Under the pieces are notes generated by a model. It was not told the DNA's origin and ran no database searches. It saw nothing but the letters and a program-made list of their open reading frames with translations. From contig NZ_PZKC01000019.1 in assembly GCF_003034845.1 (NCBI RefSeq), forward strand, positions 1-35,621: DNA of 35,621 nt. Direction: 5' to 3'. The translations under genes and the position numbers were made by a program. This DNA comes from Pseudothauera lacus (GTDB lineage Bacteria > Pseudomonadota > Gammaproteobacteria > Burkholderiales > Rhodocyclaceae). Within the stretch, counting starts at the first letter, position 1. The number at the start of each line of letters is the position of its first letter. This document shows, in pieces, positions 4,789 to 22,569 of the stretch.

Positions 4789-4806
4789 ACCCAGGAATCT
4801 CACCCC

Positions 4807-5235
4807 ATGACTACGCTTCGCCAAGCCTTCGCCACCGCCCTGTGCGCCGCCGCACTGCTGGCGCAACCGCTCGCCCACGCCCACGACCACCCGGTGGACG
4901 ACCTCCTCGACCTCCCCCACCCGATGCGCGTACTCAACCGTGCTCACTGGCAGGAGCACCTCAGCACCGAACAAAAGGCGGCCATTGCCGCCTTGCGCAG
5001 CGAGATCCAGCCGCGCTACCTGGCCCTGATGAGCGAGGCCATTCCGCTGCAGGAACAGTTGCACGCCGCGGTCTTCGCCCACGATGCCGCCGCACCCAGC
5101 CGCGAAGCGCTGGAAACCTTCGCCGATCTGCGCGTGCGCATGACGGAAGTCCAGACCGGTGCCTACGCCCGCCTGAAAAGCGTGCTCGGTGCAAGCGACT
5201 GGGAGAAACTGCTGCAGGAACTCCAGCAGCACTGA
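4807..5235 (+). CDS. Small periplasmic LTXXQ (Spy/CpxP-like) protein
   Basis: A 142-aa protein with a signal peptide (about 1-25) ending in AHAHDHP, a His/Asp-rich start of the mature chain. The rest is predicted almost wholly helical. The motif LSTEQKAAIAALR matches the LTxxQ signature of Spy/CpxP-type periplasmic helical proteins, which act as chaperones or metal-stress sensors. AGGAA precedes the start. It follows the TonB receptor by 18 bases and precedes the Cys-rich peptide by 24, suggesting a three-gene unit. The role in metal uptake is inferred from position only. Confidence 0.65.
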   Translation: MTTLRQAFATALCAAALLAQPLAHAHDHPVDDLLDLPHPMRVLNRAHWQEHLSTEQKAAIAALRSEIQPRYLALMSEAIPLQEQLHAAVFAHDAAAPSREALETFADLRVRMTEVQTGAYARLKSVLGASDWEKLLQELQQH

Positions 5236-5259
5236 AATCACCCCTCAGGGAGACCTCGA

Positions 5260-5325
5260 ATGAGCAAGAAATGCTGCGAAAAACGCAAACCCTGCAAGCG
5301 CTGCCCACGCCAGCACAAACGCTGA
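5260..5325 (+). CDS. Predicted 21-residue Cys/Lys/Arg-rich peptide
   Basis: A very short frame with a good ribosome-binding site (AGGGAGA, 6-7 bases before ATG) encodes 21 residues: four Cys, four Arg and six Lys, beginning MSKKCCEKRK and continuing with PCKRCP. The pattern CC-x5-C-x2-C could bind one metal ion. It begins 24 bases after the Spy/CpxP-like gene on the same strand, behind a Fur-box-preceded receptor. I do not know a function; a metal-binding or regulatory peptide is a guess. Without expression data or conservation it could be chance, but the start context is convincing. Confidence 0.5.
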   Translation: MSKKCCEKRKPCKRCPRQHKR

Positions 5326-5427
5326 CCAGCGCGTACCGGGGATGCGTGCCGGGAATGCCACGGGCGGAGCGCTGACCAGGCTGGCGGCGCACGAGCGCCT
5401 GCACACCGCAGACCCGGGCGCGCGCTC

Positions 5428-6366
5428 TCAGCGCAGCGAGCCGCGCTCCATCTGCAGGAAGACGTTGTAGGCATTGCCGCGATTGGCCTCGCGAAAGGCC
5501 GGCAGCTTCGCCCAGCGGCTCCAGTCGACCTCGTCGTAGGCCTCGTCGAAGGACTTCAGCTCCGCCACCGCGCGGCCCATCTCCTCGCGCAGGAACTGCA
5601 GGTAGTCCCGCGTCAGCACCAGATCGGCGCGCGGATTGGTGGATGCCGGCCCGTGCCCGGGCACCAGCACGGCCGGGCTGGCCTCGATCAGGCGCTCCAG
5701 CGCCAGCAGCCAGCGCGCGGTATCGGCCTCGCCGACGAAGGGCACGCGGCCGCGGAACAGCATGTCGCCGGCGTAGAACACGCGCTCTTCGAGCACCTCC
5801 ATGCCCATGTCGTCCGGCGAATGCGCCGGCCCCAGGTGCATCAGGCGAAACGTCAGCCCGCCCAGGCGGAACTCGCTGTCGCCCGCCAGCCAGCGGTCGG
5901 CCGCCACCAGGCGGGTGGTGTCATCGACGAAGGGGAAGAGGTCCGCCCGGCGTTGCGCCAGGCGCGCCTGCGCGCCCTCGGACTCGAGCAAGGCACGCCC
6001 GGCCTGATGCGCCCACACCTCCGCGCCGATCGTCTTGAAGGCCTGCAGGCCGTAGTAGTGGTCGGCATGGTAGTGGCTGACGATCACCCGGCGGATCGGC
6101 TGCGCGGTGAGCTTGCGGATCTCGCCGATCAACTGCTCGGCCAGCGCCGGCGTGCCCAGCGCGTCGAACACCACCACGCCCTCGTCGGTGATGACGAAGC
6201 CGGCATTCGACATGAAGCCCTCGTTGGCCGCCGAGGCCATCCCCGCCTGCCCCATCACGTACCAGCTGTGCGGCCCCACCTGCACCGGGGTCATCTCCGC
6301 CGCGCGCGCCGCGCCCCCCGCCAGCACAGCGCACCACACCATCACTACCGCCAGCAGAGTACGCAT
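5428..6366 (-). CDS. Exported metallo-beta-lactamase-fold hydrolase (SoxH/quinoprotein-relay-like)
   Basis: A 312-aa zinc hydrolase of the metallo-beta-lactamase fold. A signal peptide spans 1-23 (AGGAARAA), so it acts in the periplasm. All metal ligands are present: H98-x-H100-x-D102-H103, H182 in GPAHS, D201 in YAGDM and H238 in VPGHG. The best match I recognise is the family of exported hydrolases linked to SoxH and to quinoprotein relay systems; the substrate is unknown. The start at 6366 is preferred over an upstream ATG at 6396 because GAGGGGG lies seven bases before it and the signal peptide begins there. It stands alone, with the 180-bp repeat just upstream. Confidence 0.75.
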   Translation of the reverse strand: MRTLLAVVMVWCAVLAGGAARAAEMTPVQVGPHSWYVMGQAGMASAANEGFMSNAGFVITDEGVVVFDALGTPALAEQLIGEIRKLTAQPIRRVIVSHYHADHYYGLQAFKTIGAEVWAHQAGRALLESEGAQARLAQRRADLFPFVDDTTRLVAADRWLAGDSEFRLGGLTFRLMHLGPAHSPDDMGMEVLEERVFYAGDMLFRGRVPFVGEADTARWLLALERLIEASPAVLVPGHGPASTNPRADLVLTRDYLQFLREEMGRAVAELKSFDEAYDEVDWSRWAKLPAFREANRGNAYNVFLQMERGSLR

Positions 6367-6455
6367 CGCCGCCCCCTCGCATCGGAATATCCGCATACGC
6401 TAACGGATCGCCGCCGCGCGGTCGATCTGCGCCGCAACATCGCGGCCGCAAGGCT

Positions 6456-6635
6456 AGTCCGCACTTCTCACACCCTCACGTCGCGAGGGGGTCGAGGCGC
6501 CGCCGTGGTGCGCCGCACGGACCGATCGACGCCGAAGGCGTAGCTGACACTACGTCGAGGCGACGTGAGGGAGTACGGCGTGCCACGGCGAGTGCACCGG
6601 CACCCGCAGCAGGGATGGTGTGAGAAGTGCGGGCT
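6456..6635. repeat. 180-bp MITE-like element, copy A
   Basis: Bounded by 19-bp terminal inverted repeats (6456-6474 and 6617-6635; 18 of 19 match, core CTTCTCACACC / GGTGTGAGAAG). It is about 95% identical, in inverted orientation, to 31234-31413, which is also exactly 180 bp. No protein is encoded. Its right end runs into the stop codon of the DUF3096-like gene, and TA dinucleotides sit at both edges here. Small size, terminal repeats and dispersed copies fit a non-autonomous transposable element. Confidence 0.75.
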
Positions 6636-6789
6636 AACGCAGATGGATGCTGCCGATCCCCAGCAGGCCCATCACGCCGATCACGATCAGGTAGATGGCG
6701 ACGATGTAGTTGAGCAGCTTCGGCACCAGCAGCACGAGGATGCCGGCGATCAGCGCGAGCAGCGGGGCGAGACTGATGTTGAGGTTCAT
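6634..6789 (-). CDS. DUF3096-like 51-residue membrane protein
   Basis: This small gene reads M-N-L-N-I-S-L-A-P-L then two hydrophobic helices (LLALIAGILVLLV and LLNYIVAIYLIVIGVMGLLG), with a short Pro-Lys turn between them. Length and sequence fit the DUF3096 family of tiny inner-membrane proteins of unknown function. AGGGAGA lies six bases before the ATG. The TAG stop (6634-6636) overlaps the last bases of the 180-bp repeat, so the element's insertion may have set or preserved the C-terminus. It lies 116 bases upstream of nothing else on its strand except the repeat and the hydrolase gene. Confidence 0.8.
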   Translation of the reverse strand: MNLNISLAPLLALIAGILVLLVPKLLNYIVAIYLIVIGVMGLLGIGSIHLR

Positions 6790-6905
6790 GCGGTGTTCTC
6801 CCTATGGCATCGACCACCGGCCGACATGCCGGTGGTGCAGGAGGGCGGAGTGTGCCGCCGGCGCGGCCGGCGGGCAAGCCGCCCGGCGGCCTCCGCCGCA
6901 GGCCC

Positions 6906-8023
6906 CTACTCCCAGCTCAGCGCGCCGCCGGTCTGGTACTCGGTGACCCGGGTCTCGAAGAAGTTCTTCTCCTTCCTCAGGTTGGCCTGCTCGTCCAGCC
7001 AGGGCAGCACGTTCTGCGCGCCGGGGAAGGGTTCGTCCAGCCCCAGCTGGCGGGCGCGGCGGTTGGCGATGAAGTGGAACTGGTTCACGTGCAGCGCCGC
7101 CGAGTAGCCGAGGATGGGTTCGCGCAGGATGTAGCCGGCGTAGGCCGCCTCCGCGGCTTCGGCCTCGTCCCACAGTTCGCGCAGGCGCAGCGGGTCGAGG
7201 GTGAGATTCTCCTCCTGCAGCAGCTGGCGCACCACGCGGATGCCGAAGGCGCAGTGCAGCACCTCGTCGCGCATGATGTATTGCAGCTGCTCGGCGGCGC
7301 CCTTCATCAGCCCGCGGCGCTGCAGCGCGAAGATGGGGGTGAAGCCGTTGTAAAACCAGCAGCCTTCGAAGATGCCGGCGAAGAACAGGTAGGAGAGCGC
7401 GAATTCGTGCAGGTTGTCGCGGTTGGTCATATCGAAGTCCGAGCGCATCACGCGCTCCAGGCGGCGGTTGGCAAGCGCGATCTTGCCGTGGATCTCGGGC
7501 ACCACGCGGTAGCGGTTGTAGATCTCCTGCTGGTCCAGGCCCAGGCTCTCGATGCAGTGCTGGTAGGTCCAGGTGTGCAGCGCTTCCTCGTACACCTGGC
7601 GGGCCTGGTAGATCTGCAGCTCGGGCGCGCTCATCTTCTCCATCACCGCCAGGCCGATGTTGCGCATGGCGAGGATGTCGGAGGTGGTGAGGTAGGCGAG
7701 CACGTTCTCGAACACGTGGCGTTCGGCCGGCGTGAGCTTGTGGTGGTAGTCGTGCACATCCTGCGCCATGGAGATTTCCAGCGGCGTCCAGTGGTTCTTG
7801 TTGGCGTTGAGGAAGAACTCCCACGCCCACGGATAGCGGAAGGGGGCGAGCTGGTTGATGTCGGCGTGGCCGTTGACCACGCGCTTGTCCATCGGGTTGA
7901 CCGGGGCCAGCGCCGGGCGCGGGGCTGCCGCCTGGGGAGCGCTCGCGGAAGCGACCGCCGGCGCTGCAGGCGCAGCCACGGGCGTGGCGGGTCGGTCGTC
8001 CCAATCGTCGAAGCGGAAGGCAC

Positions 8024-8027
<4 letters not shown>
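6906..8027 (-). CDS. nrdB: Class Ia ribonucleotide reductase, beta subunit
   Basis: A 373-aa radical-generating subunit of aerobic ribonucleotide reductase. The di-iron ligands are D117, E148, H151, E221, E255 and H258. The tyrosyl-radical residue is Y155 in EEALHTWTY. The overall sequence is closest in style to the Chlamydia-type R2 (EEA-x-H-T, CIESLGLD), but Asp at the first ligand and Tyr at the radical site indicate an ordinary iron/tyrosyl enzyme. Residues 12-45 are an Ala/Pro-rich linker. The start is fixed by the ATGA overlap with the nrdA stop, so the two are translationally coupled. An open frame continues upstream but overlaps nrdA in another frame and is not real. Confidence 0.96.
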
Positions 8028-10849
<2,822 letters not shown>

Positions 10850-11898: not shown

Positions 11899-12059
11899 CC
11901 TGCGGGCTCCACGGTTTTCCGTGCGCCGGGATGGAGAGGGAGACGATGGTCGCGCTTTGCGGAGCGGGTGCTGCACCCGAAGCACGGCGGGATCTGGAGC
12001 CCGCAGAACCCATCGGCAACCGGCCCACACCCCGGGGCAGCTGTGCTGACGAAATCGAG

Positions 12060-12258
12060 CGGGTCGGTCTTCTGGCTCACCGTCATCCGGTCGCCGTCAC
12101 CTTCCCGAAGCAACACGCTTCAGTGGTATTGATTTGACGGCGCCGTCAGGCTTACAGCAGCGGGGGCTGCGCCGGAATGGCGCGAGCATGGACTCGCGCG
12201 TCACCGGACTTCCCGTTTCACCCCTGGCGCGGACGCGCCGCGGGGCTCCCGATCGATG
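12060..12258 (-). promoter_or_regulatory. Cobalamin riboswitch in the cobO leader
   Basis: On the minus strand: GAAACGGGAAGTCCGGTG, then CAGCCCCCGCTGCTGTAAGC, CCACTG, CGGGAAGG, and a B12 box reading GAGCCAGAAGACCGACC. The core has GCTGCTGTAA rather than the usual GCAACTGTAA, and the B12 box has AGAAGACC rather than AGGAGACC, so it is a diverged but recognisable member. It ends about 160 bases before cobO. Expected to reduce cobO expression when coenzyme B12 is plentiful. Confidence 0.88.
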
Positions 12259-12345
12259 CTGGCCGAACTATACGCCGTCAGCGCCCGAAGCGGCAATGCG
12301 GGGCTGCCAGGCGCTGCCGCCGGATGACGCAGGTGCAGCAAAAGT

Positions 12346-12387
12346 TTGACCAACGTCAGACACGGCGCCGGCGCGGCAGGCTATGAT
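12346..12387 (+). promoter_or_regulatory. FNR/ANR-type promoter of the fez-feo operon
   Basis: TTGAC-CAAC-GTCAG (12346-12359) is an FNR/CRP-family dyad close to TTGAT-N4-ATCAA. A TATGAT -10 box lies at 12382-12387. If transcription starts seven bases after it (12394), the dyad centre (between 12352 and 12353) is exactly at -41.5, the class II activator position. This predicts induction when oxygen is low. The remaining leader to 12593 is about 200 bases, GC-rich, with no recognised RNA element or reading frame of note. Confidence 0.55.
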
Positions 12388-12593
12388 GCTTTCCGCGTAG
12401 GCAGCACCTTGCGGACGCCATCGTCCGCCGCTCTCAGTGCACGCCGTCCGCTGCAGCAGGTTCGCGTAGCCAGCTTCGGTCAGCCAGGAACCCGTCCCGT
12501 GTGGAGCCCCGCTCCACCGTGCGGAGGCTTGTCTGATCGCGCCAGGCGCGTTGGCCTACGGGTACCTGACAACCGGCTGCGCTGGACCCCGCC

Positions 12594-12932
12594 ATGCCCG
12601 AATTCGAAGAGCTGCGCACCTTTCTCCGCAACATCCGCATCGCCCACCACATCCGCGGGCGCATCCGCCTCAAGCTCGACGGCGAGATGCCGGCCATGGA
12701 GATGCCCGGCGAACAGGCGCGCGCACTGCGTACGGTGCTTGATCGCAGCCCCGGCATCGTCGACGTCAAGGTCAACCTGCTGGCACGCTCGTGCACCGTC
12801 ATCTACGACCCCGGCACCATCCCCGAGCAGGCCTGGAGCGAACTCCTCGGCGGCTCGGCGAGCGCGGCCGCGGCACTGCTGGAAGACATCCTGCGCGACA
12901 CCTACCGGGAGATCGCTCATGCAGAACCATGA
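12594..12932 (+). CDS. HMA_2-like small protein, first gene of the ferrosome-like operon
   Basis: A 112-aa protein with a ferredoxin-like heavy-metal-associated fold of the type lacking CxxC. The signature is R21-G-R-I-R-L-K-L, then PGIVDVKVNLLARSCTVIYDPG, ending with a helix. The same pattern occurs at the N-terminus of the ATPase five genes downstream and in the convergent gene at 20500-20928. These domains probably guide metal delivery or protein contacts rather than binding Cu by Cys pairs. Start: GGA nine bases before ATG, weak. The stop overlaps the next start by 14 bases. It would correspond to an HMA component of a fez cluster; which Fez protein it matches I cannot say. Confidence 0.7.
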   Translation: MPEFEELRTFLRNIRIAHHIRGRIRLKLDGEMPAMEMPGEQARALRTVLDRSPGIVDVKVNLLARSCTVIYDPGTIPEQAWSELLGGSASAAAALLEDILRDTYREIAHAEP

Positions 12933-13614
12933 CGAAATCATCCTGCGCACCCGCCGCATCGACCCTGCTGCGCCCTACCCGGTCGTCCACCAGGCGGTCC
13001 GCATTGCGCTCTACGACGAATACGCCGCGCGCGCCTTCTACCAGCGCGTGACCGAGGCCTACGGCGCGCGCGCGCCCTTCGCCAACATCCAGCGCGCCGA
13101 GGAACAGCACGTCGGCGCGCTGTACAGCCTGTGCGAGCGCTACGGCATTCCCCGCCCGCTCGACCCCTTCCCCGCGGAAACCACCATTGAAGCGGGCTGG
13201 CTGGCCAACTGCCAGCGCGGGGTCGCCGGCGAGATCGCCAACGTCAGGCTGTATGCCGAACTCCTCGCCCAGATCGGCGAGGCCGACGTGCGCCGGGTGT
13301 TCGAGAACCTCCAGGCCGCCTCGCTGCACAACCACCTCCCCGCTTTCCAGCGCGCCGTTGCCGCAGCGCAGGCCCAGGAGCGCTATCACGCCGCACACGG
13401 CATCGCCCCGCAGCAGGCCTACGCCCGCCACGGCCCGGTATCCGACTTTCTCGAACGCGCCTTCGCGCAGCTCGGCCAGCACGCCGGGCCGCTCGGCCTG
13501 TTCAGTCCGCTTCTGCGTCACGCACACCCCGCCATGCTGGCCGGCATGGCCGCGGGTGGCGCTGGAGCCTATCTGCTGAAGAGCAGGCTCGGCCGTCATC
13601 GCAAGGAGATCTGA
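12919..13614 (+). CDS. Ferritin-like (DUF2202-type) protein with C-terminal membrane tail
   Basis: A 231-aa protein. Residues about 15-155 form a ferritin-like four-helix bundle of the DUF2202 kind. Candidate di-iron ligands are the Asp/Glu in YDEYAARAFY, EEQH in RAEEQHVGALY, Glu in EIANVRLYAELL and the E...H region of FENLQAASLHNHLPAF. The C-terminus (about 195-231) has a hydrophobic GxxxG-type helix (AMLAGMAAGGAGAYLL) followed by basic residues, so it is likely membrane-anchored. Start at 12919, overlapping the previous gene by 14 bases, gives the family-length protein. Inside an iron organelle or at its membrane it could oxidise or bind Fe(II); this is inferred. Confidence 0.72.
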   Translation: MQNHDEIILRTRRIDPAAPYPVVHQAVRIALYDEYAARAFYQRVTEAYGARAPFANIQRAEEQHVGALYSLCERYGIPRPLDPFPAETTIEAGWLANCQRGVAGEIANVRLYAELLAQIGEADVRRVFENLQAASLHNHLPAFQRAVAAAQAQERYHAAHGIAPQQAYARHGPVSDFLERAFAQLGQHAGPLGLFSPLLRHAHPAMLAGMAAGGAGAYLLKSRLGRHRKEI

Positions 13615-13615
13615 C

Positions 13616-13945
13616 ATGTTCCCGCTACTGCCCTTCGTCGCCGGCGTGGTCACCGGCGCGGTCGCACTGCGCCTGCTCAGGACCGACAAGACCCGCGGCA
13701 GCCTGGAAAAAGCCCAGGACAGCCTGCGCAGCGCCACAGTGTCCAGTCTGGAAGCCATCGAGAACGCCTCCGCGCGTGCACGCCAGCGTCTCGCCGCCCC
13801 CGCCCCTGCCGGGGACGCCGCTGCAGCGCCGGCAAGCACCACCGCGGCGGCCGCAACGCGCAAACGCACCAGCAGCAAGCCCGCGGCCAGGAAGACCGCG
13901 GCCCCCAAGCGCACGCCGGCAACCCCCGGAGGCGCTGAATCATGA
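13616..13945 (+). CDS. Small membrane protein with Lys/Ala/Thr-rich tail
   Basis: A 109-aa protein with a single hydrophobic segment at residues 1-20 (FPLLPFVAGVVTGAVALRLL), a short helix (about 28-58), then a low-complexity tail rich in Ala, Lys, Arg, Thr and Pro (for example RKRTSSKPAARKTAAPKR), like a histone H1 tail. AAGGAGA lies before the ATG, which follows the ferritin-like stop by one base; the gene ends in an ATGA overlap with the next. No family recognised. Its place in the operon and topology suggest a structural protein of the organelle membrane, the basic tail contacting polyanions (phosphate is abundant in ferrosomes). Confidence 0.65.
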   Translation: MFPLLPFVAGVVTGAVALRLLRTDKTRGSLEKAQDSLRSATVSSLEAIENASARARQRLAAPAPAGDAAAAPASTTAAAATRKRTSSKPAARKTAAPKRTPATPGGAES

Positions 13946-14247
13946 GGGCAGTCGTTGCTCCGCCGCGCAGCGCCAGCTTTGCCCAGGGCTTCGTCGCCGC
14001 AGGCTGTGTATCCGCCTTCCAGGATCGCGCCACACCGTGCTCCGCCGCCGACCTCAGGCGCATCCTGCGCCACGCCCTGCAGGGCGGCACCGCGCTGAGC
14101 GCCGGCAGCCGCGCCGCCCAGGCGCTGCACCGGCGCGACTACGGCAGCGCCCTGCTGGCGGTGGCGACGGGTGCCGCCGGGGTGATGCTCATCGAACACC
14201 TGCTGCGCGCGCCTGCGCAGACCAACACGGAGAACGACCATGGCTAA
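13942..14247 (+). CDS. Small hydrophobic protein of the ferrosome-like operon
   Basis: A 101-aa protein. A central amphipathic part (SAADLRRILRHALQGG) is followed by one clear membrane segment near 72-91 (GSALLAVATGAAGVMLIEHLL) with small-residue spacing, and a polar end (TNTENDHG). The ATG overlaps the previous stop as ATGA, and its own stop lies inside the next gene, so translation is coupled. No family recognised. It may be equivalent to one of the small membrane proteins in fez clusters, judged only by position and size. Confidence 0.62.
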   Translation: MRAVVAPPRSASFAQGFVAAGCVSAFQDRATPCSAADLRRILRHALQGGTALSAGSRAAQALHRRDYGSALLAVATGAAGVMLIEHLLRAPAQTNTENDHG

Positions 14248-14644
14248 GAAACACAAGAAACGCTGCAAGTGCGGCGGCATCAACCACGGCCACTATGGCT
14301 ACACCGGCATGGGACCCGGTGCGGCAATGGGCGGCATGCCAGGCGCAGAAGGCAGCTTTGCCGCAGGCTACGACCCCGCCGGGCTGCAGGCCGGCCTCGG
14401 CGCTGCCGGCATCGACGCCGGACTGCTGCAGGGCATGCCGGCCTTCCTGCGTTCGCGCACCACCGAGCAGTTCCTGCTTGGCGCACTGATCGGCGCAGCG
14501 GCGGCCTGGGTGCTCAGCGACGAGGAACTGCGCGGCAAGATCGTCAAGTCTGCACTCAAGCTGTATGCCGGCGTGGCCGGCGGCGTCGAGGAAATGAAGG
14601 AACAGATGGCCGACATCCGCGCCGAGGTCGAAGCAGAGCGATGA
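14240..14644 (+). CDS. Membrane protein with Cys/His/Gly/Met-rich N-terminus
   Basis: A 134-aa protein. It begins M-A-K-K-H-K-K-R-C-K-C-G-G and continues with His, Tyr, Gly and Met residues (about 1-40), a likely metal-binding or mineral-contacting head. A membrane segment lies near 75-92 (QFLLGALIGAAAAWVLSD), with glycines as in magnetosome-type and YtxH-like proteins. The C-terminal third is a charged helix (EEMKEQMADIRAEVEAER), possibly a coiled coil. The start overlaps the previous gene by 8 bases and the stop overlaps the ATPase start as ATGA. No family named with confidence. A role in organelle membrane shape or iron nucleation is inference. Confidence 0.65.
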   Translation: MAKKHKKRCKCGGINHGHYGYTGMGPGAAMGGMPGAEGSFAAGYDPAGLQAGLGAAGIDAGLLQGMPAFLRSRTTEQFLLGALIGAAAAWVLSDEELRGKIVKSALKLYAGVAGGVEEMKEQMADIRAEVEAER

Positions 14645-16773
14645 CACCGGCCTGGCTGTGCGCCCTCGAACCCATGCACCAGACCCGCGGGCGGGTGCGC
14701 TGGCGCTACCGCTGCGAACGCGGTACGGCGCCCGCGGCGGTGTTCATCGAGCGCGCCGTGGCCACCCTCGACGGCGTGCGCAAGGTGCGCGTCAATGCCG
14801 CCGCGCGCGCGCTGGTGGTTGAGTTCGACCCCCAGCGCAACAACGCCGATGCGCTCGCACTCGCCATCCTGCGCATGGTGCCGGCAGCGGCGCGCGGGCA
14901 CTCCGCCAACGGGGCGCCCAGCGCCGCGCCGCTGGCGCTGAGCGCCGCAACCCTGCTGGCCTCGCGCACCCTCGATGCGCGCCTGCAGGCGCCGGTGGCC
15001 CTCGGCACCGCCATCCCGCTGCTCGGCGAGGCCTTCGACGACTTCTTCGAGAAGGGCGTCACTTCCCACGTCCTCGAAGCCCTCGCGGTGGTCATCTCGA
15101 TCGGCCGCCAGGACTACCTGGCAGCCAACACCACCTCCTTCCTGCTCGCCCTCGGCGAGTATCTGGAAGCTTCCATCGAACGCCGCTCCGACGACCTCCT
15201 CAAGCACCTGCTGAAGCCTGCCACCGATGCGGTCTGGGTGGAGCGCGACGGCGCCGAGGTACAGGTGGACGCCACCGAGCTGCGGGTCGGCGACACCGTG
15301 ATCGCCGCCACCGGCAGTGTCATCGCCGTGGACGGCACGGTGCTCGGCGGCGAGGCCACGGTCAACGAGGCAGCAATGACCGGCGAGAGCGTCGCCGTCG
15401 AGCGCCGCCGCGGCGACCGCGTACTGTCCGGCACCCTGGTCGAGGAAGGCCGTCTGCGCATCTACGCCGAACACGTCGGCGCACAGGCGGCAGCCGCACG
15501 CATCGCCGACTTCGTCGAGCAGTCGCTGGCGGTAAAGAGCCGCACCCAGCTCGAAGCCGCGCGCATGGCCGACCGCCTGGTGCCGATGGTGCTCGGGCTC
15601 GCTGCGGCGACCTGGCTGGTATCGCGCGACTGGCAGCGCGTCGCCGCGGTGCTGCAGGCCGACTACTCCTGCGCCCTGAAGCTGTCCACGCCGGTCGCCT
15701 TCAAGGCAGCGATGTTCGAAGCCGGCAAGTCCGGCATGCTGGTCAAGGGTGCCAAGGCCCTCGAACGCCTCGCCGAAGCCGACACCTTCGTCTTCGACAA
15801 GACCGGCACGCTGAGCACCGGCAAGCTCGAAGTCACCGACTCGGTGGCCTTCAAGCCCGGCTACACCCCGGAAGACCTCATCAACCTCGCCGCTTCGGTG
15901 GAAGAGCACTACTTCCACCCCCTCGCCCTGGCGGTGGTCGAGGCCTCGCGGCGGCTCGACCATCCACGCCACTTCGATCACAAGGAAGTCGAGTTCATCG
16001 TCGCCCACGGCGTCGCCAGCGTCATCGACGGCCGCCGCATCGTCGTCGGCTCGCGCCACTTCGTCGAAGACGACGAAGGCATCTCCATCGCCGCCCACCA
16101 CGAGATCGTCGACCGCCTCCATGGCGAGGGCAAGACCCTGCTCTTCATCGGCTTCGGCGGCGAGCTGCTGGGCGTGCTGGCGCTGCGCGACAGCCTGCGC
16201 GAGAACAGCGCCGCCACCCTGCGGCGGCTGCGCAAGCTCGGCGTCGGACGCATCGTGATGCTCACCGGCGACCACCCCGAACGCGCCCGCGCCACCGCCA
16301 CCGCGCTGGGCCTCGACGGCTTTCACGCCGGCCTCCTGCCCGAAGACAAGGCCCGCATCCTGCAAACCATGGCCGCCGAAGGCGCGCGCATCGCCTTCGT
16401 CGGCGACGGCGTCAATGACGCCCCCGCGCTCAGTGGCGCGCACGTCGGCATCTCCATGCACAACGGCGCCGACGTCGCCCGCCTGGCCGCCGACGTCGCC
16501 CTGCTCGAGGACGACATCGCCCGCGTCGCCGACGCCAAGGCCCTGGCCATCGCCACCCAGCACCTGATCGACAGCAATTTCAGACTCACCGTCGGCCTCA
16601 ACACCACCATCCTCTCCGCCGCCGCCTTCGGCTGGCTGAGGCCGGTGGCGGCCTCGGCGCTGCACAACGGCACCACCATCGCCATTTTGCTGCGCGCACT
16701 TGCCGGTGCCGGCCTGCCGCGCAACCGACGCTCCCGCCCTCCACGCCCCACCACTACCCACACAACGCAATGA
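14641..16773 (+). CDS. fezB: P1B-type metal ATPase, FezB-like (P1B-6 type)
   Basis: A 710-aa metal-pumping ATPase. The N-terminus (about 12-62) is an HMA_2-like domain with R16-G-R-V-R and no CxxC. The actuator motif is T247-G-E-S250, phosphorylation D386-K-T-G-T-L, HP motif in HYFHPLALA, and hinge GDGVNDAP (588-595). The metal-site helix reads Y342-S-C344-A-L-K-L-S-T-P instead of the CPC, CPH or SPC of Cu, Zn or Co pumps. I associate this motif with the P1B-6 group, which includes FezB, thought to load iron into ferrosomes. Last of six coupled genes that resemble a fez operon; FeoA follows with an ATGA overlap. A CtpC-like Mn/Zn pump is the main alternative. Confidence 0.75.
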   Translation: MTPAWLCALEPMHQTRGRVRWRYRCERGTAPAAVFIERAVATLDGVRKVRVNAAARALVVEFDPQRNNADALALAILRMVPAAARGHSANGAPSAAPLALSAATLLASRTLDARLQAPVALGTAIPLLGEAFDDFFEKGVTSHVLEALAVVISIGRQDYLAANTTSFLLALGEYLEASIERRSDDLLKHLLKPATDAVWVERDGAEVQVDATELRVGDTVIAATGSVIAVDGTVLGGEATVNEAAMTGESVAVERRRGDRVLSGTLVEEGRLRIYAEHVGAQAAAARIADFVEQSLAVKSRTQLEAARMADRLVPMVLGLAAATWLVSRDWQRVAAVLQADYSCALKLSTPVAFKAAMFEAGKSGMLVKGAKALERLAEADTFVFDKTGTLSTGKLEVTDSVAFKPGYTPEDLINLAASVEEHYFHPLALAVVEASRRLDHPRHFDHKEVEFIVAHGVASVIDGRRIVVGSRHFVEDDEGISIAAHHEIVDRLHGEGKTLLFIGFGGELLGVLALRDSLRENSAATLRRLRKLGVGRIVMLTGDHPERARATATALGLDGFHAGLLPEDKARILQTMAAEGARIAFVGDGVNDAPALSGAHVGISMHNGADVARLAADVALLEDDIARVADAKALAIATQHLIDSNFRLTVGLNTTILSAAAFGWLRPVAASALHNGTTIAILLRALAGAGLPRNRRSRPPRPTTTHTTQ

Positions 16774-17015
16774 CCACCTCCACCCCAGCCGACAACTTTC
16801 CCCTCGCCATGGCCAGCGAAGGCGAAACCGTGCGTGTCGTCGCCATCCTCGGCGGCAAGGCCATGACGCTGCGGGTCTCCGAACTCGGCCTCAACATCGG
16901 CAGCGAAGTGGTGGTGCGCCAGCGCCAGGGCGGCGGCCTGGTCATCGGCCGCGGTGAGACCCGCTTTGCCCTCGGCGGCGGCATGGCGCACAAGATCCTG
17001 GTCACCCGTGCATGA
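16770..17015 (+). CDS. FeoA-like SH3 protein (first of two)
   Basis: An 81-aa FeoA-type SH3 domain: VRVVAILGGKAMTLRVSELGLNIGSEVVVRQRQGGGLVIGRGETRFALGGG in outline, with the typical L-x-E-L-G-L-x-x-G-S turn. FeoA proteins bind or regulate FeoB. The start overlaps the ATPase stop as ATGA, so it belongs to the same transcript and is separated from the canonical feoA by about 80 bases. Two different FeoA proteins suggest one may serve the ATPase instead of FeoB; that is a hypothesis. Confidence 0.85.
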   Translation: MTTSTPADNFPLAMASEGETVRVVAILGGKAMTLRVSELGLNIGSEVVVRQRQGGGLVIGRGETRFALGGGMAHKILVTRA

Positions 17016-17098
17016 GGTTTACCCGCACATGCCCCTTTCATCCGGGCTGAGGGTGGGGCACAATACGCCCAAACTCGCAAATGAGAGAGGTAATGCGA

Positions 17099-17326
17099 AT
17101 GATGCTCAAGAATCTTTCCGTCGGAGACCGCGCCAAGGTCTGTGGCTTCTCCGCCGCCGGCGGCCCCTATCGCCGCAAGCTGCTGTCCATGGGGCTCACC
17201 CCGGGCGCGGAACTGCAGGTGGTGCGCGTGGCGCCGATGGGTGATCCGGTGGAGATCCGCGTGCGCGGTTTCGCCCTCACCCTGCGCAAGAACGAGGCCG
17301 ACGCCCTGACGGTGGAGAAACTCTGA
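17099..17326 (+). CDS. feoA: FeoA, ferrous iron transport accessory protein
   Basis: A 75-aa SH3-fold protein: LSVGDRAKVCGF, YRRKLLSMGLTPGAELQVVR and VEIRVRGFALTLRKNEA are standard FeoA runs. Several in-frame ATGs lie at 17081, 17093, 17099 and 17102. GAGAGAGG (17083-17090) is best placed for 17099. The stop overlaps the feoB start by one base (TGATG). The 66-base gap to the previous FeoA-like gene could hold an internal promoter (CACAATA near 17059), not firmly seen. Confidence 0.92.
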   Translation: MMLKNLSVGDRAKVCGFSAAGGPYRRKLLSMGLTPGAELQVVRVAPMGDPVEIRVRGFALTLRKNEADALTVEKL

Positions 17327-19650
17327 TGAGCACCGGACACATCATCGCCCTGGTGGGCAATCCCAACTGTGGCAAGACCACCCTCTTCAACGCCCTCACC
17401 GGCTCGCGCCAGCGCGTCGGCAACTGGCCCGGCGTCACCGTCGAGAAGAAGAGCGGTGAATACCACTACGACAAGCTGCGCTTCGAGGTCGTGGACCTGC
17501 CCGGCACCTACTCGCTCGACGTCGTCGACCGCGAGGTCTCGCTCGACGAGAGCGTCGCCCGTGACTACGTGCACGCCAACGAAGCCGGTCTGGTGATCAA
17601 CATCGTCGACGCCGCCAACCTTGAGCGCAACCTCTACCTCACCACCCAGCTCGCCGAAATGCGCGTGCCGCTGGTGGTGGTGCTCAACATGATGGACGTT
17701 GCCGGCAACAAGGGCCTGCAGGTGGACCCGCAGGCCCTCGCGCGCCAGCTCGGCTGCCCGGTGGTGCCGGTGGTGGCCTCGACCGGCGAGGGCATCGACA
17801 CCCTCCGCGAAGTGATCCGCAAGGCCGTCGATGCGCCCGCCGCGGCGAATGTCGAGGTCGCCTACCAGAGCGAGCTCGAAGATGCCGTCGGCGCGCTCAT
17901 GCCCCAGCTCGAAGAGGCCGCCCGCAAGGCCGGCAGCGCGCCGCGCTGGCTCGCCGTGCGCCTGCTCGAAGGTGACGACCTCGCCCGCCGCATCGCCGGC
18001 AGCGCGGTCGAAGAACAGGCCAGCGCCCTGCGCGGCAAGCTCGGTGACGACATCGACATCATGGTCGCCGATGCGCGCTACGGGCTCGCCAACCGCATCG
18101 CCGGCAACACCGTGAGCGCCGGCGCCCGCATCGGCCACGACCTCACCGACCGCATCGACCGTGTGGTGCTCAACCGTGCGCTGGGCGTGCCGATCTTCCT
18201 GCTGATGATGTACCTGATGTTCCTGTTCACCATCAACATCGGTGGCGCCTTCATCGACTTCTTCGACCTGTTCACCGGCGCCCTGCTGGTCGACGGGCTG
18301 GCGGAAGTGCTCACCGCCATGGGCTCGCCGGAATGGCTCACGGTGATCCTCGCCCAGGGCATCGGCGGCGGCATCCAGGTGGTCGCCACCTTCATCCCCA
18401 TCATCGGCTTCCTCTTCCTCTTCCTCTCCATCCTCGAAGACTCCGGCTACATGGCGCGCGCCGCCTTCGTCATGGACCGCTTCATGCGCTGGGTGGGCCT
18501 GCCCGGGAAGTCCTTCGTACCGCTCATCGTCGGCTTCGGCTGCAACGTCCCGGCGATCATGGCCACCCGCACCCTGGAGCACCGCCGCGACCGCCTGATG
18601 ACCATCGCCATGGCGCCCTTCATGTCCTGCGGCGCGCGCCTGCCGGTGTATGTGCTGTTCGCCGCGGCCTTCTTCCCCACCGGCGGACAGAACGTCGTCT
18701 TCGCGCTCTACCTGATCGGCATCGCCGTGGCCGTACTCACCGGCCTCGCCCTGCGCCACACCCTCATGAAGGGCGAACCCACCCCCTTCATCATGGAGCT
18801 GCCGCCCTACCACCTGCCCACCGTGCGCGGCGTCCTGCGCCTCGCCTGGGAGCGCCTGAAGGCCTTCATCGTGCGCGCCGGCCGGGTCATCGTGCCGATG
18901 GTACTGGTGCTCAACGTGCTCAACTCGGTCGGCACCGACGGCAGCTACGGCAACGAGGACAGCGACGCCTCCGTGCTCGCCGAGATCGGCCGCAGCATCA
19001 CCCCGGCCTTCGCGCCGATGGGCCTCACCGAAGAGAACTGGCCGGCAGCGGTGGGCATCTTCACCGGCGTGCTCGCCAAGGAAGCGGTGGTCGGCACGCT
19101 CAACGCCACCTACTCCGCGCTCGCCGCGCAGGATGCCGGCGAAGAGGCGGAAGAAGAGGCGTTCAGCCTGCGTGAAGCGCTGGCCGAAGCCTTCGCCACC
19201 ATCCCCGCCAACCTCATCGACACCCTCGGCGCGTGGGCCGATCCGATGGGCCTGGACGTCGGCGACCTCAGCGATGCCGAAGCGGTGGCCGAAGAGCAGG
19301 AAGTCTCGGTGGGCACCTTCGGCGCCATGGCGACACGCTTCAGCGGTACCGCCGGCGCCTTCGCCTACCTGCTGTTCATCCTCCTGTACACCCCCTGCAC
19401 CGCCGCCATTGCCGCGGTCTATCAGGAATCCGGCGCACGGTGGACGCTCTTCGTGACGGGCTGGACCAGCGGCCTCGCCTACGGCGTGGCGACCATGTAC
19501 TACCAGGCCGCCAACTGGGCCCAGCACCCGGCGAGTTCGGCAGCGTGGATAGCCGGCATACTCGCCGCCCTCGCCGCCACCCTGTGGTTCCTGCGCCGCC
19601 AGGGCGCCCGCGCCGACGGCGGGCGCATCCCGCTGCCGCAGCAGGCCTGA
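17326..19650 (+). CDS. feoB: FeoB, Fe(II) transporter
   Basis: A 774-aa inner-membrane ferrous iron permease. The N-terminal G domain has G1 GNPNCGKTT (11-19), G3 DLPGTYSL and G4 NMMD, followed by the GDI helical domain. The membrane part contains the Gate motifs with conserved Cys (GCNVPAIMATRTLEH and APFMSCGARLPVY) and a C-terminal Gate (YTPCTAAIAA). Residues around 600-620 form an acidic insert (AGEEAEEEAF). Length is standard. It sits directly after feoA and ten bases before feoC, and is probably cotranscribed with the fez-like genes. Confidence 0.97.
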   Translation: MSTGHIIALVGNPNCGKTTLFNALTGSRQRVGNWPGVTVEKKSGEYHYDKLRFEVVDLPGTYSLDVVDREVSLDESVARDYVHANEAGLVINIVDAANLERNLYLTTQLAEMRVPLVVVLNMMDVAGNKGLQVDPQALARQLGCPVVPVVASTGEGIDTLREVIRKAVDAPAAANVEVAYQSELEDAVGALMPQLEEAARKAGSAPRWLAVRLLEGDDLARRIAGSAVEEQASALRGKLGDDIDIMVADARYGLANRIAGNTVSAGARIGHDLTDRIDRVVLNRALGVPIFLLMMYLMFLFTINIGGAFIDFFDLFTGALLVDGLAEVLTAMGSPEWLTVILAQGIGGGIQVVATFIPIIGFLFLFLSILEDSGYMARAAFVMDRFMRWVGLPGKSFVPLIVGFGCNVPAIMATRTLEHRRDRLMTIAMAPFMSCGARLPVYVLFAAAFFPTGGQNVVFALYLIGIAVAVLTGLALRHTLMKGEPTPFIMELPPYHLPTVRGVLRLAWERLKAFIVRAGRVIVPMVLVLNVLNSVGTDGSYGNEDSDASVLAEIGRSITPAFAPMGLTEENWPAAVGIFTGVLAKEAVVGTLNATYSALAAQDAGEEAEEEAFSLREALAEAFATIPANLIDTLGAWADPMGLDVGDLSDAEAVAEEQEVSVGTFGAMATRFSGTAGAFAYLLFILLYTPCTAAIAAVYQESGARWTLFVTGWTSGLAYGVATMYYQAANWAQHPASSAAWIAGILAALAATLWFLRRQGARADGGRIPLPQQA

Positions 19651-19659
19651 GCACAGGCG

Positions 19660-19896
19660 ATGATCCTCACCCGCCTCAGTACCCTGCTGCGCGAACGCCA
19701 GCGCGCCACCCTGGCCGAGCTGGCGCGCGGCGTCGATGCCAGCCCGGAGGCGTTGCAGCCAATGCTCGCCACCCTCGAACGCAAAGGCCGCATCCGCCAC
19801 CTCGGCGCCGGCTCGCGCTGTTCCTCGGGGTGCTGCAAGTGCGACCCGGCGACGCTGGACGTCTATGAGTGGATCGCCGACGCCGCCGCAGACTGA
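19660..19896 (+). CDS. feoC: FeoC-like winged-helix protein
   Basis: A 78-aa protein. The first 50 residues form a DtxR/FeoC-type winged helix (LLRERQRATLAELARGVDASPEAL). A Cys cluster follows, C-S-S-G-C-C-K-C, typical of FeoC, where it can hold an oxygen-sensitive Fe-S cluster and affects FeoB stability. It starts ten bases after feoB and overlaps the next gene by 32 bases. Confidence 0.85.
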   Translation: MILTRLSTLLRERQRATLAELARGVDASPEALQPMLATLERKGRIRHLGAGSRCSSGCCKCDPATLDVYEWIADAAAD

Positions 19897-20470
19897 AGAG
19901 CGCCGCGCGGCACCGCCCGCAGCCCTCATCGTCGTCGGCATCCACCGCGAAGAGCGCGACTTCGGCCACGAGGTCGCGCTCACCCTGCCCGCCGACGAAG
20001 CCGAAGTGCTGGAGATCCCCGAAGGACTCTCCAACCACCGCCCGCGCCCCGACGAGCGCTTTCGCCACGAGGTCCTCCACCAGGCCCTCTACCTGCAACT
20101 GCTGCCCCAGCTCAAGCCCGCCCACCGCCTGCTCATCGACCTGCACACCGGCAGCGACGGCAACGGCCCCGCCGCCGACCTGCTGTGCGCCGACCCGCGC
20201 CTGCGCGCCGCCCTCAACGCCGCCCTCGGCAATGCCGCGGAGCCCTGCGCCGCGCAGGTGCGCGTCATCCCTCTGGGCACGCCGGCAGGTCTGCGCGCAC
20301 GCACGGTGATCCCCGAAACGGTGTGGAACAACCCCGCCTTCGCCTACCTCGGCATGGAGATCTACCTCCCCGGCACGGCCAGCGGGCGGCAACAGGGTGT
20401 GGACCTCGCACGGCGGCTGATCCGCCTCGCCATCCGCCTCAGCGGCGCGCTCTCCGACAGCTCCGCGTAA
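19865..20470 (+). CDS. M14/succinylglutamate-desuccinylase-like protein
   Basis: A 201-aa protein of uncertain role. It shows VVGIHREE (H-x-x-E) and, about 80 residues later, LLIDLHTGSDG, the arrangement of zinc ligands in aspartoacylase/succinylglutamate desuccinylase-type M14 hydrolases. A possible catalytic Glu lies near the end (GMEIYLPG). It is shorter than typical members. The start at 19865 lies inside feoC in another frame, so coupling is likely; a later start cannot be excluded. Why such an enzyme accompanies feo is unclear. Family call is moderate. Confidence 0.55.
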   Translation: MSGSPTPPQTEERRAAPPAALIVVGIHREERDFGHEVALTLPADEAEVLEIPEGLSNHRPRPDERFRHEVLHQALYLQLLPQLKPAHRLLIDLHTGSDGNGPAADLLCADPRLRAALNAALGNAAEPCAAQVRVIPLGTPAGLRARTVIPETVWNNPAFAYLGMEIYLPGTASGRQQGVDLARRLIRLAIRLSGALSDSSA

Positions 20471-20499
20471 AGCACGCCCGCAGCGGCCCTTCTCCCCTC

Positions 20500-20928
20500 T
20501 CAGCGCAGCAGCGCGTGGCGCCGCAAACCGACGTGCACGGCCAGGCAGGCCAGGAACACCCCACCGCTGAGCACATGCCAGCGCTTCGCCCCGGCTGCCG
20601 CAAACGCCAGCGACACCCCCAGGCTGCCCAGCATGCCGATCTTCGCGGCGCGGTTGGCACGCGCCCCCGGCGAGCGTGCCGCGCGCCGGCGCGACGCCGC
20701 AATCACCTCATCGACCAAGGCATCCACGCGACGCTCGAAAACCTCCACAGCAAGCGCCGCAGCGTCGTAATGCACCACCAGCGAGCCCGCGCCGGCATTC
20801 GCCCGCATCGCCCCCACACCCGCCAGCGCCCCCACCCCGGCCTCCAGCGCGCGCAGGCGCTCACGGTCGCGCAATGCCGCATCGCGGATGCGCAAACGGC
20901 CGGGAATGGAGGAAGCAATGCGGGCCAT
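20500..20928 (-). CDS. HMA_2-like protein with two membrane helices
   Basis: A 142-aa protein. Residues 8-60 carry the same HMA pattern as the fez-operon proteins: I-P-G-R-L-R-I-R-D, then a helix, LAGVGAMRANAGAGSLVVHYD. A basic linker (ASRRRAARSPGARANRAAK) and two hydrophobic helices (about 97-112 and 118-135) follow. AGGA lies nine bases before ATG. It is convergent with the M14-like gene, 29 bases apart. It is likely a further component of the ferrosome-like system, resembling the membrane-bound HMA proteins of such clusters, but this rests on motif and location. Confidence 0.65.
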   Translation of the reverse strand: MARIASSIPGRLRIRDAALRDRERLRALEAGVGALAGVGAMRANAGAGSLVVHYDAAALAVEVFERRVDALVDEVIAASRRRAARSPGARANRAAKIGMLGSLGVSLAFAAAGAKRWHVLSGGVFLACLAVHVGLRRHALLR

Positions 20929-21081
20929 GGCAGGTGTCCTGGGAGCAGCGGCAAGGGAGTTTCACCGTATCACTGCGGGCGGGGCCGGGCAAGCGCCCCC
21001 TCCGCCGCCTTGCGTCGCCATGCCCATGTACTACCATGAGCTGACAACAGCGCGCCCCGCGCCCCCCAGAGGAGACAGCCG

Positions 21082-22569
21082 ATGAGCACCCCGCTCGCCC
21101 CCCATTACCCCATCATCTACGTGCGCGGCTACGCCATGACCCCCGGCGAGGTCGCCGAAACCGTTTCCACCCCCTACATGGGCTTCAACCTCGGCGCCAC
21201 CAAGCTGCGCCAGGCGTGGGACGGCAGGGTGCTCAAGCACGTCTTCGAATCGCCGCTGATCCGCCTGATGAAGGACTACGGCTACCGCGACACCTTTGCC
21301 GACGGCAGCGAGAGCGAAGCCCGCCTGCCCGCCCGCAGCGTCGTCATCTACCGCTACTACGAAACCGCCGACGCCGATCTCGGCACCGGCAAGGCGCTCT
21401 CCATCCCCGAAGCCGCCGCCGGCCTCAAGACCCTCATCCACCGCGTCCGCGAACAGGTCTGCGGCGACGATGCCGGACTGCGCGCCCAGTTCAAGGTGCA
21501 TCTCGTCGCCCACTCCATGGGCGGACTGGTGGTGCGCGCCTTTTTGCAGAACGACCACATCAGCAACGCCGCCGATCGCGCCCTGGTCGACAAGGTGTTC
21601 ACCTACGCCACCCCCCACAACGGCATCGAAGTCGCCGGCATGAACATCCCCGCAGTGCTCGGCCTGTGGGACATCAACAACTTCAACCGCAGCAAGATGG
21701 CCGAATACCTTGGCCTGAGCGGCAAGCCCGCGCGCGTCGACAGCCTCGACGGCAAGTTCGACCCCCAGCGCTTCTTCTGCTTCGTCGGCACCAACCACCG
21801 CGACTACGACGTTGCCCTCGGCATCTCGCGCCGCCTCGCCGGCGAAATGAGCGACGGCCTGGTCAAGATCGACAACGCCACCGTGCGCGGCGCCCCGCGC
21901 GCCTTCGCCTACCGCAGCCACAGCGGCCCCTACGGCGTGGTCAACTCCGAAGAGGGCTACCAGAACCTCGTCCGCTTCCTGTTCGGCGACGTCCGCGTCG
22001 ACGGCCACCTCGAAGTCGCCGCCCTGCCCCTGCCCCCCTCCGTGCAGAAAGCCAAGGACCAGGGCCGCAGCATCCGCGCCTCCTACTATTTCGAAGCCAC
22101 CGTCGTCCCCCGCGGCACCTTCAGCTTCCGCCTCAGCGAACGCCGCCGCGACACCAACAGCGCCATCCTGCGCAGCTACGACGAACTGCTCGACACCCGC
22201 CGCGCCAACATCGACGCACCGCGCTCGCCGGTGCTGTTCAGCGCCTTCCTCGACACCGCCCACATCACCACCGGCCGCACCCTCGTCTTTGCCCTCGAAC
22301 TGGCCGTCTCCACCACCGGCTACACCATCGACCGCAAACTCTGGCCCGACCAGCACCTCGAAGGCGAATACCTCTTCCGCGACACCCTCACCCTGCGCCT
22401 CACCCGCAACCCCGACGGCTTCAGGCTGCGCTACCTCAGCAGCGACGAGAACTGGAGCGAAAACACCGGCACCCTCGCCGAAGCCACCGACGGCGGCTAC
22501 GCCATCGCGCTGTCGTCGAAGAAGGGCTTCAAGGCTACGTTGAGGCTGGTGGTGCGAACAGCGGGGTAA
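21082..22569 (+). CDS. Lipase-like alpha/beta hydrolase
   Basis: A 495-aa protein with no signal peptide. It starts PIIYVRGYAMTP (oxyanion-type loop) and has the nucleophile elbow V-A-H-S-M-G-G, the Ser being the likely catalytic residue, then YATPHNGIEVAG as in lipases and PGAP1-type esterases. Asp and His candidates are D in MSDGLVKIDN and H in YRSHSGPYG. The last 170 residues form a beta-rich C-terminal domain of unknown type. AGAGGAGA precedes the ATG. It appears monocistronic. Substrate unknown. Confidence 0.75.
   Translation: MSTPLAPHYPIIYVRGYAMTPGEVAETVSTPYMGFNLGATKLRQAWDGRVLKHVFESPLIRLMKDYGYRDTFADGSESEARLPARSVVIYRYYETADADLGTGKALSIPEAAAGLKTLIHRVREQVCGDDAGLRAQFKVHLVAHSMGGLVVRAFLQNDHISNAADRALVDKVFTYATPHNGIEVAGMNIPAVLGLWDINNFNRSKMAEYLGLSGKPARVDSLDGKFDPQRFFCFVGTNHRDYDVALGISRRLAGEMSDGLVKIDNATVRGAPRAFAYRSHSGPYGVVNSEEGYQNLVRFLFGDVRVDGHLEVAALPLPPSVQKAKDQGRSIRASYYFEATVVPRGTFSFRLSERRRDTNSAILRSYDELLDTRRANIDAPRSPVLFSAFLDTAHITTGRTLVFALELAVSTTGYTIDRKLWPDQHLEGEYLFRDTLTLRLTRNPDGFRLRYLSSDENWSENTGTLAEATDGGYAIALSSKKGFKATLRLVVRTAG

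Follow-up and report, generated by a model that had tools for sequence, protein, structure and literature searches.

The 35,621-nucleotide stretch of Pseudothauera lacus DNA analysed here (contig NZ_PZKC01000019.1, positions 1 to 35,621; hereafter the window) most probably carries a ferrosome (fez) gene cluster of the Rhodopseudomonas palustris type with a feo ferrous-iron importer joined into it. Ferrosomes, which are membrane-bound stores of iron, were only recently recognised as a class of bacterial organelle. Ten tightly spaced genes occupy positions 12594-19896 on one strand and encode, in order, an HMA_2-like small protein (A), a DUF2202 ferritin-like protein (B), three small proteins (C, D and E), a P1B ATPase (F), a second FeoA-domain protein (G), FeoA, FeoB and FeoC; they are followed by an eleventh gene on the same strand (X), which overlaps feoC, and by a twelfth, FezC-like gene (H) on the opposite strand. 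The named genes have open reading frames and positive coding scores. The ATPase falls in the FezB-type clade and homologues of all six R. palustris fez genes are present; therefore, the locus is read as a fez locus.

The first six genes overlap or abut from 12594 to 16773, as an earlier note on this DNA had claimed, with overlaps of 14 bp between A and B, 4 bp between C and D, 8 bp between D and E and 4 bp between E and F, and a gap of 1 bp between B and C. The same note placed the cluster at 12346-20928, of which the genes were recovered but the start was not: position 12346 is an upstream TTG of a different reading frame that extends into B, and the first gene begins at 12594. On the feo side, F and G overlap by 4 bp, feoA and feoB by 1 bp, and feoB and feoC are separated by 9 bp, with 65 bp between G and feoA (83 bp if feoA starts at 17099). 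The order A-B-C-D-E-F is shared by loci L198, L199, L027 and L062 (L- and G-numbers are the analysis labels of loci and genomes, L199 being the locus of genome G1029), and L028 has A-B-C-E-F, where D was not found by tblastn and an ORF of 60 aa stands in its place. Because it recurs in these loci, save D in L028, the order of A to F is beyond chance.

The P1B ATPase (F, 14641-16773, plus strand, 710 aa) has an HMA-like N-terminal domain, the sixth-helix motif DYSCALK, in which DYSC replaces CPC, and the motif LHNGTT. The control pumps have CPC, SPC, CPG, CSC or CPD in the sixth helix, classes that we take to be those of Cu, Zn, Cd and Co pumps, and FezB is labelled P1B-6. A P1B ATPase tree had been set beforehand as a check on the proposal of a ferrosome operon, and F came out with the Rhodopseudomonas FezB-type pumps and apart from the CPx-type pumps sampled. 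Among its 63 rows, 41 with the D motif are separated from 22 CPx-type rows by a branch with a Shimodaira-Hasegawa-like approximate likelihood ratio (SH-aLRT) support of 99.3. The window F belongs to a clade of 14 rows (SH-aLRT 99) that also holds the four Rhodopseudomonas proteins, one Azospirillum protein encoded on a plasmid and relatives from its own family. The tree used 22 of the 77 CPx-type rows, with at most eight per motif class, and left out L035, L038, L059, L198 and L199. Named relatives and control pumps were drawn from one contig scan, which used patterns common to all P-type ATPases and matched at least 80 loci, an arbitrary sample. In the genome of the window, three further P1B matches were found, all on contigs other than this one as far as they were classified, with two of them identified as CPC pumps. 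Two further loci, L178 (G1013) and L179 (G941), encode P1B ATPases with VDYGTGIR replacing CPC/DYSC and ISNGSA replacing LHNGTT; these are without the cysteine and form a long branch among the FezB-type pumps.

In the passages available from PMC12016538, the six fez genes of R. palustris CGA009 are RPA2333-2338, used for ferrosome synthesis, and the part of PMC6879726 available has rpa2333-2338 lowered in low light together with iron genes. The comparison was made with genome G979 and three sister genomes (loci L169-L172), not with CGA009 itself. These come from the family to which an Afipia genome belongs, sampled with 248 genomes, of which 15 had a match at an E-value of 1e-100; four of the 15 are 71-72% identical to the Azospirillum protein, each with photosynthetic reaction-centre genes. 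PufL of G950 equals Protein Data Bank (PDB) entry 6z5r at all 277 positions, PufM differs between G979 and G950 at seven places, and 6z5r, linked to R. palustris through PMC7806223 in the part of that source available, has the G979 letter at all seven; G979 was taken as R. palustris because of this agreement. G979 has one match at an E-value of at most 1e-100, with 4 of 26 candidates scored, and its operon has six genes in the order H-A-C-D-E-F.

The window has homologues of all six of these genes, C and D weakly. Relative to G979, the identities are 39% for A, 45% over 56 aa for D, 64% over 59 aa for E, 61% for F and 40% over 58 aa for H, and across the four Rhodopseudomonas copies they are 39-44% for A, 41-45% over 56-59 aa for D (E-value about 3e-5), 63-67% over 59-60 aa for E, which is the best conserved small fez protein, 60-61% for F and 30-40% for H. 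For C, tblastn gave a match in L171 only (39% over 71 aa, E-value 4e-12), and the copies in L169, L170 and L172 were matched by blastp only, with E-values of 1e-5, 1e-6 and 3e-5; the G979 copy, likewise found by blastp only, is 44% identical over 45 aa (E-value 1e-5). Each small gene thus has the relative in a fez cluster that the earlier note had asked to be looked for. Its six-gene fez operon stands as to the presence of all six R. palustris-type homologues, but its six were not the same six, B being extra and H lying on the minus strand.

The small proteins are heterogeneous. A (12594-12932, plus strand, 112 aa) matches Pfam HMA_2 with 30.0 bits, exactly at the cut-off of 30. C (13616-13945, plus strand, 109 aa) and D (13942-14247, plus strand, 101 aa) are small one-helix membrane proteins by hydropathy, with no credible family in Pfam. 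E (14240-14644, plus strand, 134 aa) is YtxH/DUF5132-like, with sub-threshold matches to YtxH (E-value 0.0019) and to DUF5132. Among the first five proteins, the hydropathy threshold for a membrane helix is passed by C and D only; B and E have Gly/Ala-rich segments that fall under it. By this measure, the description of three small membrane proteins is borne out for C and D and weakened for E.

The FezC-like gene H (20500-20928, minus strand) encodes an HMA_2-like domain and two helices with two conserved histidines. Its Pfam matches to HMA_2 (27.7 bits, cut-off 30) and DUF4405 (E-value 0.007) are both below cut-off. The histidine pair is spaced as in the Rhodopseudomonas copies and is found in 13 of 20 usable rows of a 21-row alignment (the L177 row was omitted), namely all 12 aligned rows of the R. 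palustris-type clade and the Desulfovibrionaceae (Mailhella) copy, and it is missing from seven, which are Cereibacter, Rhodobacter capsulatus and five further genomes.

P1B ATPases are in general metal exporters, and F might on that ground be an efflux pump that exports Fe(II) over the cell membrane against iron overload, with the small proteins as helper subunits and no organelle. Its position beside an importer could also fit export, and the organelle is itself predicted from the genes. This reading is nevertheless quite improbable, given that the entire six-gene set, beyond the ATPase, matches the R. palustris ferrosome operon as described in the available part of PMC12016538, and that importing and exporting iron from the same message would be futile cycling if the pump did not fill a store inside the cell.

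The earlier note also had a FeoA-like gene, feoA, feoB and feoC following the ATPase, and Pfam bears this out with two FeoA matches, FeoB and FeoC. The second FeoA-domain protein (G, 16770-17015, plus strand, FeoA 55.6 bits) opens the feo cassette and is followed by feoA (17081-17326, plus strand, with an alternative start at 17099; FeoA 78.6 bits), feoB (17326-19650, plus strand; FeoB_N 219.9 bits, with Gate, FeoB_C and FeoB_Cyto also matched) and feoC (19660-19896, plus strand; FeoC 66.4 bits). With FeoA, FeoB and FeoC adjacent by Pfam, the cassette qualifies as a Feo ferrous iron uptake system. The 4-bp overlap between fezB and the first feo gene makes it probable that import and storage are encoded on one message, and iron uptake and storage would probably be switched on together. 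The window genome has one FeoB match at an E-value of 1e-40, which is the feoB of this operon.

In the genus sample of six genomes, two have the fusion (the window and G1029), one has fez alone, two have feo alone and one has neither. G1029 has the complete composite from A to feoC plus X, in which F and G as well as G and feoA overlap by 4 bp; the flanking genes differ from those of the window, and the identities between the two are 71% for F and 75% for feoB. The genus-mates G330 and G381 have a standalone G-feoA-feoB-feoC cassette, with identities to the window of 63-66% for G, 79-83% for feoA and 72-75% for feoB, and in G1028 H runs toward A-B-C-D-E-F from the opposite side. To judge from gene order, the window looks like the G1028 arrangement with G-feoA-feoB-feoC-X placed between F and H. 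Gene X (19865-20470, plus strand, about 200 aa), which overlaps feoC by 32 bp and has only a weak match to AstE_AspA_cat (E-value 0.062) in Pfam, is 46% identical to L199 5234-5830 and lies behind feoC in both composite operons, and no X homologue was found behind the feo cassettes that stand alone in G330 and G381.

The coupling to feo, which the earlier note thought possibly new, is not unique to the window. A feoB lies within 6 kb of six of 41 FezB-type genes, the window included, against one of 77 control P1B loci (Fisher p 0.007, with a mean flank of about 10 kb searched in both sets), a statistic that ignores relatedness. The six feoB-linked loci (the window, L030, L033, L036, L057 and L177) are nevertheless spread across several branches of the P1B tree, and feoB is always on the same strand. 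Within the passages that the literature search on ferrosomes with feoB returned, feo is unmentioned, the original ferrosome report being outside the search.

Three loci with iron importers next to FezB-type genes deserve detail. In L033 (G325, 4313-9078), from the family of the window, a FezB-type gene comes after feoA-feoB and one small gene; this gene belongs to the Lachnospiraceae/Mailhella branch and is thus a second, separate FezB-type/feo pairing in that family. L030 (6699-15328) and L031 (3986-10176) have R. palustris-type fez genes next to FTR1 iron permease genes, suggesting that fez genes are coupled to other iron importers there; L030, one of the six loci counted for feoB, has divergent FeoB and FeoA genes adjoining the fez genes too.

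The fusion could also be an insertion accident with no functional coupling, in which feoA is driven by a promoter of its own within the 65 bp that precede it. The feo cassette alone in two genus-mates and fez without feo in one would fit this, as would a Fur-like match of 13/19 at 17089, beside feoA. The match was, however, equalled or exceeded in 4 of 20 shuffles, and the best match at feoA of G1029 is 9/19. Furthermore, the 4-bp overlap of F and G is kept in G1029 despite its different flanks, where the next junction overlaps by 4 bp too, and feoB recurs next to FezB-type genes on several branches. An accident is therefore considered unlikely, and a fez cluster with a feo importer joined into it is preferred.

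Iron-responsive fez expression via Fur is described for C. difficile in the passages available from PMC12574912. The window scans gave no regulatory site above chance, for Fur or for promoters; the single promoter hit is on the other strand, and shuffled sequences would be expected to give 0.5. Upstream of A, the best Fur-like match is 12/19 in G1029 and 9/19 in G1028. Elsewhere in the window, Fur-like matches of 12/19, within the shuffle range, occur at 186-204 and 2605-2623, just upstream of two TonB receptor genes (Pfam) that start at 326 and 2689.

Several observations weigh against reading the locus as a ferrosome cluster coupled to iron import. The vesicle and the metal moved are predictions from the genes, and several of the R. 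palustris matches are weak, with E-values of about 1e-5 for C and D in most copies. H would be outside the operon message because it lies on the opposite strand at the cluster end, and in G1029 tblastn over the 18 kb that surround the composite operon found no H. Upstream of A in the window, the best Fur-like match is 9/19, which is no better than chance. The coupling would also not be obligatory, because G1028 has fez and B with no FeoB match at 1e-60, and another genome of the genus, G1030 (86% complete), lacks an F match and matches FeoB only distantly.

The ferritin-like protein B (12919-13614, plus strand, 231 aa) matches Pfam DUF2202 (PF09968) with 28.4 bits, above the cut-off of 22, and a nine-sequence profile of B matches PDB 3q4n (MJ0754) with an E-value of 8.7e-7. 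It is extended at the C-terminus by about 80 residues, the last of them hydrophobic and rich in Gly and Ala, so that the ferritin-like protein with a membrane tail of the earlier note is recognisable in the DUF2202 domain and the hydrophobic end, but the tail is below the helix threshold. Fez-linked copies of B were found in six loci, which are the window, L198, L199, L027, L028 and the Arcobacter plasmid L062; the L062 copy scores 18.1 bits, below the Pfam cut-off, and the L028 copy has no match. A tblastn search of 31 loci, which included short contigs, showed no DUF2202 gene in 28. The class sample had DUF2202 relatives in 6 of its 273 other genomes, and among plasmid records there were 14 DUF2202 matches, two of which, from Arcobacter, share a record with F.

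That B descends from a DUF2202 ferritin-like protein and now serves in scaffolding or sorting, with its tail counting for more than its iron site, has close to an even chance. The C-terminal extension with its Gly/Ala-rich hydrophobic end is present in all six fez-linked copies, and the six standalone DUF2202 relatives, with ORFs of 133-166 aa, have no comparable end. Additionally, the putative ligands E34, E61, H64, E105 and H139 (an assignment made by inference) are complete in the window, L199 and L062 and partly lost in the other three copies, with four of five kept in L027, three in L028 and two in the genus-mate L198. B is otherwise conserved, with 73% and 71% identity to two genus-mates and dN/dS values of 0.33 (against L198) and 0.25. 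Because ligands are partly lost while B is conserved, a structural role competes with an iron-site role. Set against the scaffold, the localisation is putative and the single-sequence AlphaFold2 model of B is unusable (mean pLDDT 40.5).

It is somewhat doubtful that B is a working ferroxidase or ferritin that mineralises iron at the ferrosome membrane. The complete set of putative ligands in the window, L199 and the Arcobacter copy would suit such an activity; the incomplete sets in L027, L028 and L198, where the rest is conserved, would not, R. palustris-type operons have no such gene, and the ligand positions were not based on a structure.

Standalone DUF2202 genes were considered as hidden fez loci and rejected, as tblastn over 12-15 kb at five of the six found no homologue of A, C, D or E. 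P-type ATPase stretches do lie by standalone DUF2202 genes: 47 aa at the end of L040, a 592-aa stretch of 29% identity in L041 and one in L043. L042 has an HMA-like match of 46 aa, and L043 also has a FeoA-like match of 37 aa. The literature search gave no paper naming DUF2202, the original ferrosome report being outside the search, and searching on the fez operon, ferrosomes and ferritin-like proteins gave ferrosome passages only, from the part of PMC12574912 available. Elsewhere in the window genome there are four ferritin-family (PF00210) genes, and because of these the ferrosome would be an additional store in the cell.

From this gene set we infer that an organelle is made, that the transported metal is iron and what A to E and H each do. 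FeoB would import Fe(II) to the cytosol, from where the HMA-like protein A and the HMA-like N-terminus of F could pass iron to the pump, and F (FezB) would pump it into the vesicle. C, D and E may shape and populate the vesicle membrane, and the FezC-like H would be a haem protein adjusting the redox state of iron across that membrane. B, with its hydrophobic tail, might sit on the vesicle membrane as a local iron binder or scaffold. As a tentative extension, the tailed DUF2202 protein may be a resident of the ferrosome membrane that takes Fe(II) from the co-expressed FeoB and hands it to FezB, and that serves as a scaffold without an iron site in some lineages. If this were true, the two known modes of bacterial iron storage, lipid-bounded and ferritin-fold, would meet in one machine made during iron import. 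To our knowledge, the route by which iron reaches ferrosomes is open. Since the only FeoB found in this genome is encoded with the ferrosome genes, deletions could probe an import-to-storage route directly. The gene for the tailed ferritin-like protein adds a new candidate to the components of ferrosomes; among the loci examined it occurs in six, five of them in the family of the window and the sixth on a plasmid of Arcobacter (Campylobacterota).

In the family sample, 12 of 121 genomes had an F match at 1e-90, comprising ten with the D motif (the window included), one SPC pump (L034) and one unclassified. The class sample gave four of 274 at 1e-90 (the window, the FezB-type G247, a CPC pump and one unclassified), and the phylum sample nine of 398 at 1e-85 (the window, seven with the D motif and one CPG pump). 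FezB-type genes are also carried on plasmids of Azospirillum, Arcobacter, Cereibacter and Vibrio, and this carriage together with the patchy pattern would suggest their horizontal spread. An origin of the locus as a contig-end artefact or foreign DNA was considered and dropped, with a GC content of 0.69-0.70 over 12001-22000 against 0.60-0.70 across the window and a genome that is 99.99% complete.

Compared with known systems, the window shares with the R. palustris operon homologues of H, A, C, D, E and F, five of them in equal order. The R. palustris operon is without a DUF2202 gene and had no feoB in the 11-16 kb fetched, and H is its first gene, whereas in the window H is separate and inverted. 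The ferritin-like member, which the earlier note thought possibly new, is thus indeed not part of that operon but is also fez-linked in five other loci. Like the FezC/DUF4405 cytochromes, FezC being a DUF4405-like haem protein in the passages available from PMC10979944, H has an HMA_2-like domain, a weak DUF4405 match and a spaced histidine pair; it differs in that both its Pfam matches are sub-cut-off and its haem binding is putative. The nearest stand-ins for the Fez systems of S. putrefaciens CN-32, D. magneticus and C. difficile were the Vibrio, Mailhella and Lachnospiraceae loci. The Vibrio plasmid pTHAF190c_a and the gammaproteobacterial genomes G620 and G710 have A-like, E-like and F genes and the DYSC motif, but a longer second gene (about 240-264 aa) replaces DUF2202 and F is 38-39% identical. 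The Arcobacter plasmid p133_DSM_115972 (CP129951, L062), whose host was from chicken meat, has the same order of A, DUF2202, C, D, YtxH-like and P1B ATPase genes, but no feo or H was seen within 10 kb and F is 45% identical. Judged by gene content, the type of fez cluster is known and the linkage of FezB to feo is not confined to this locus; the variant here would be the fusion to feo together with the ferritin-like gene.

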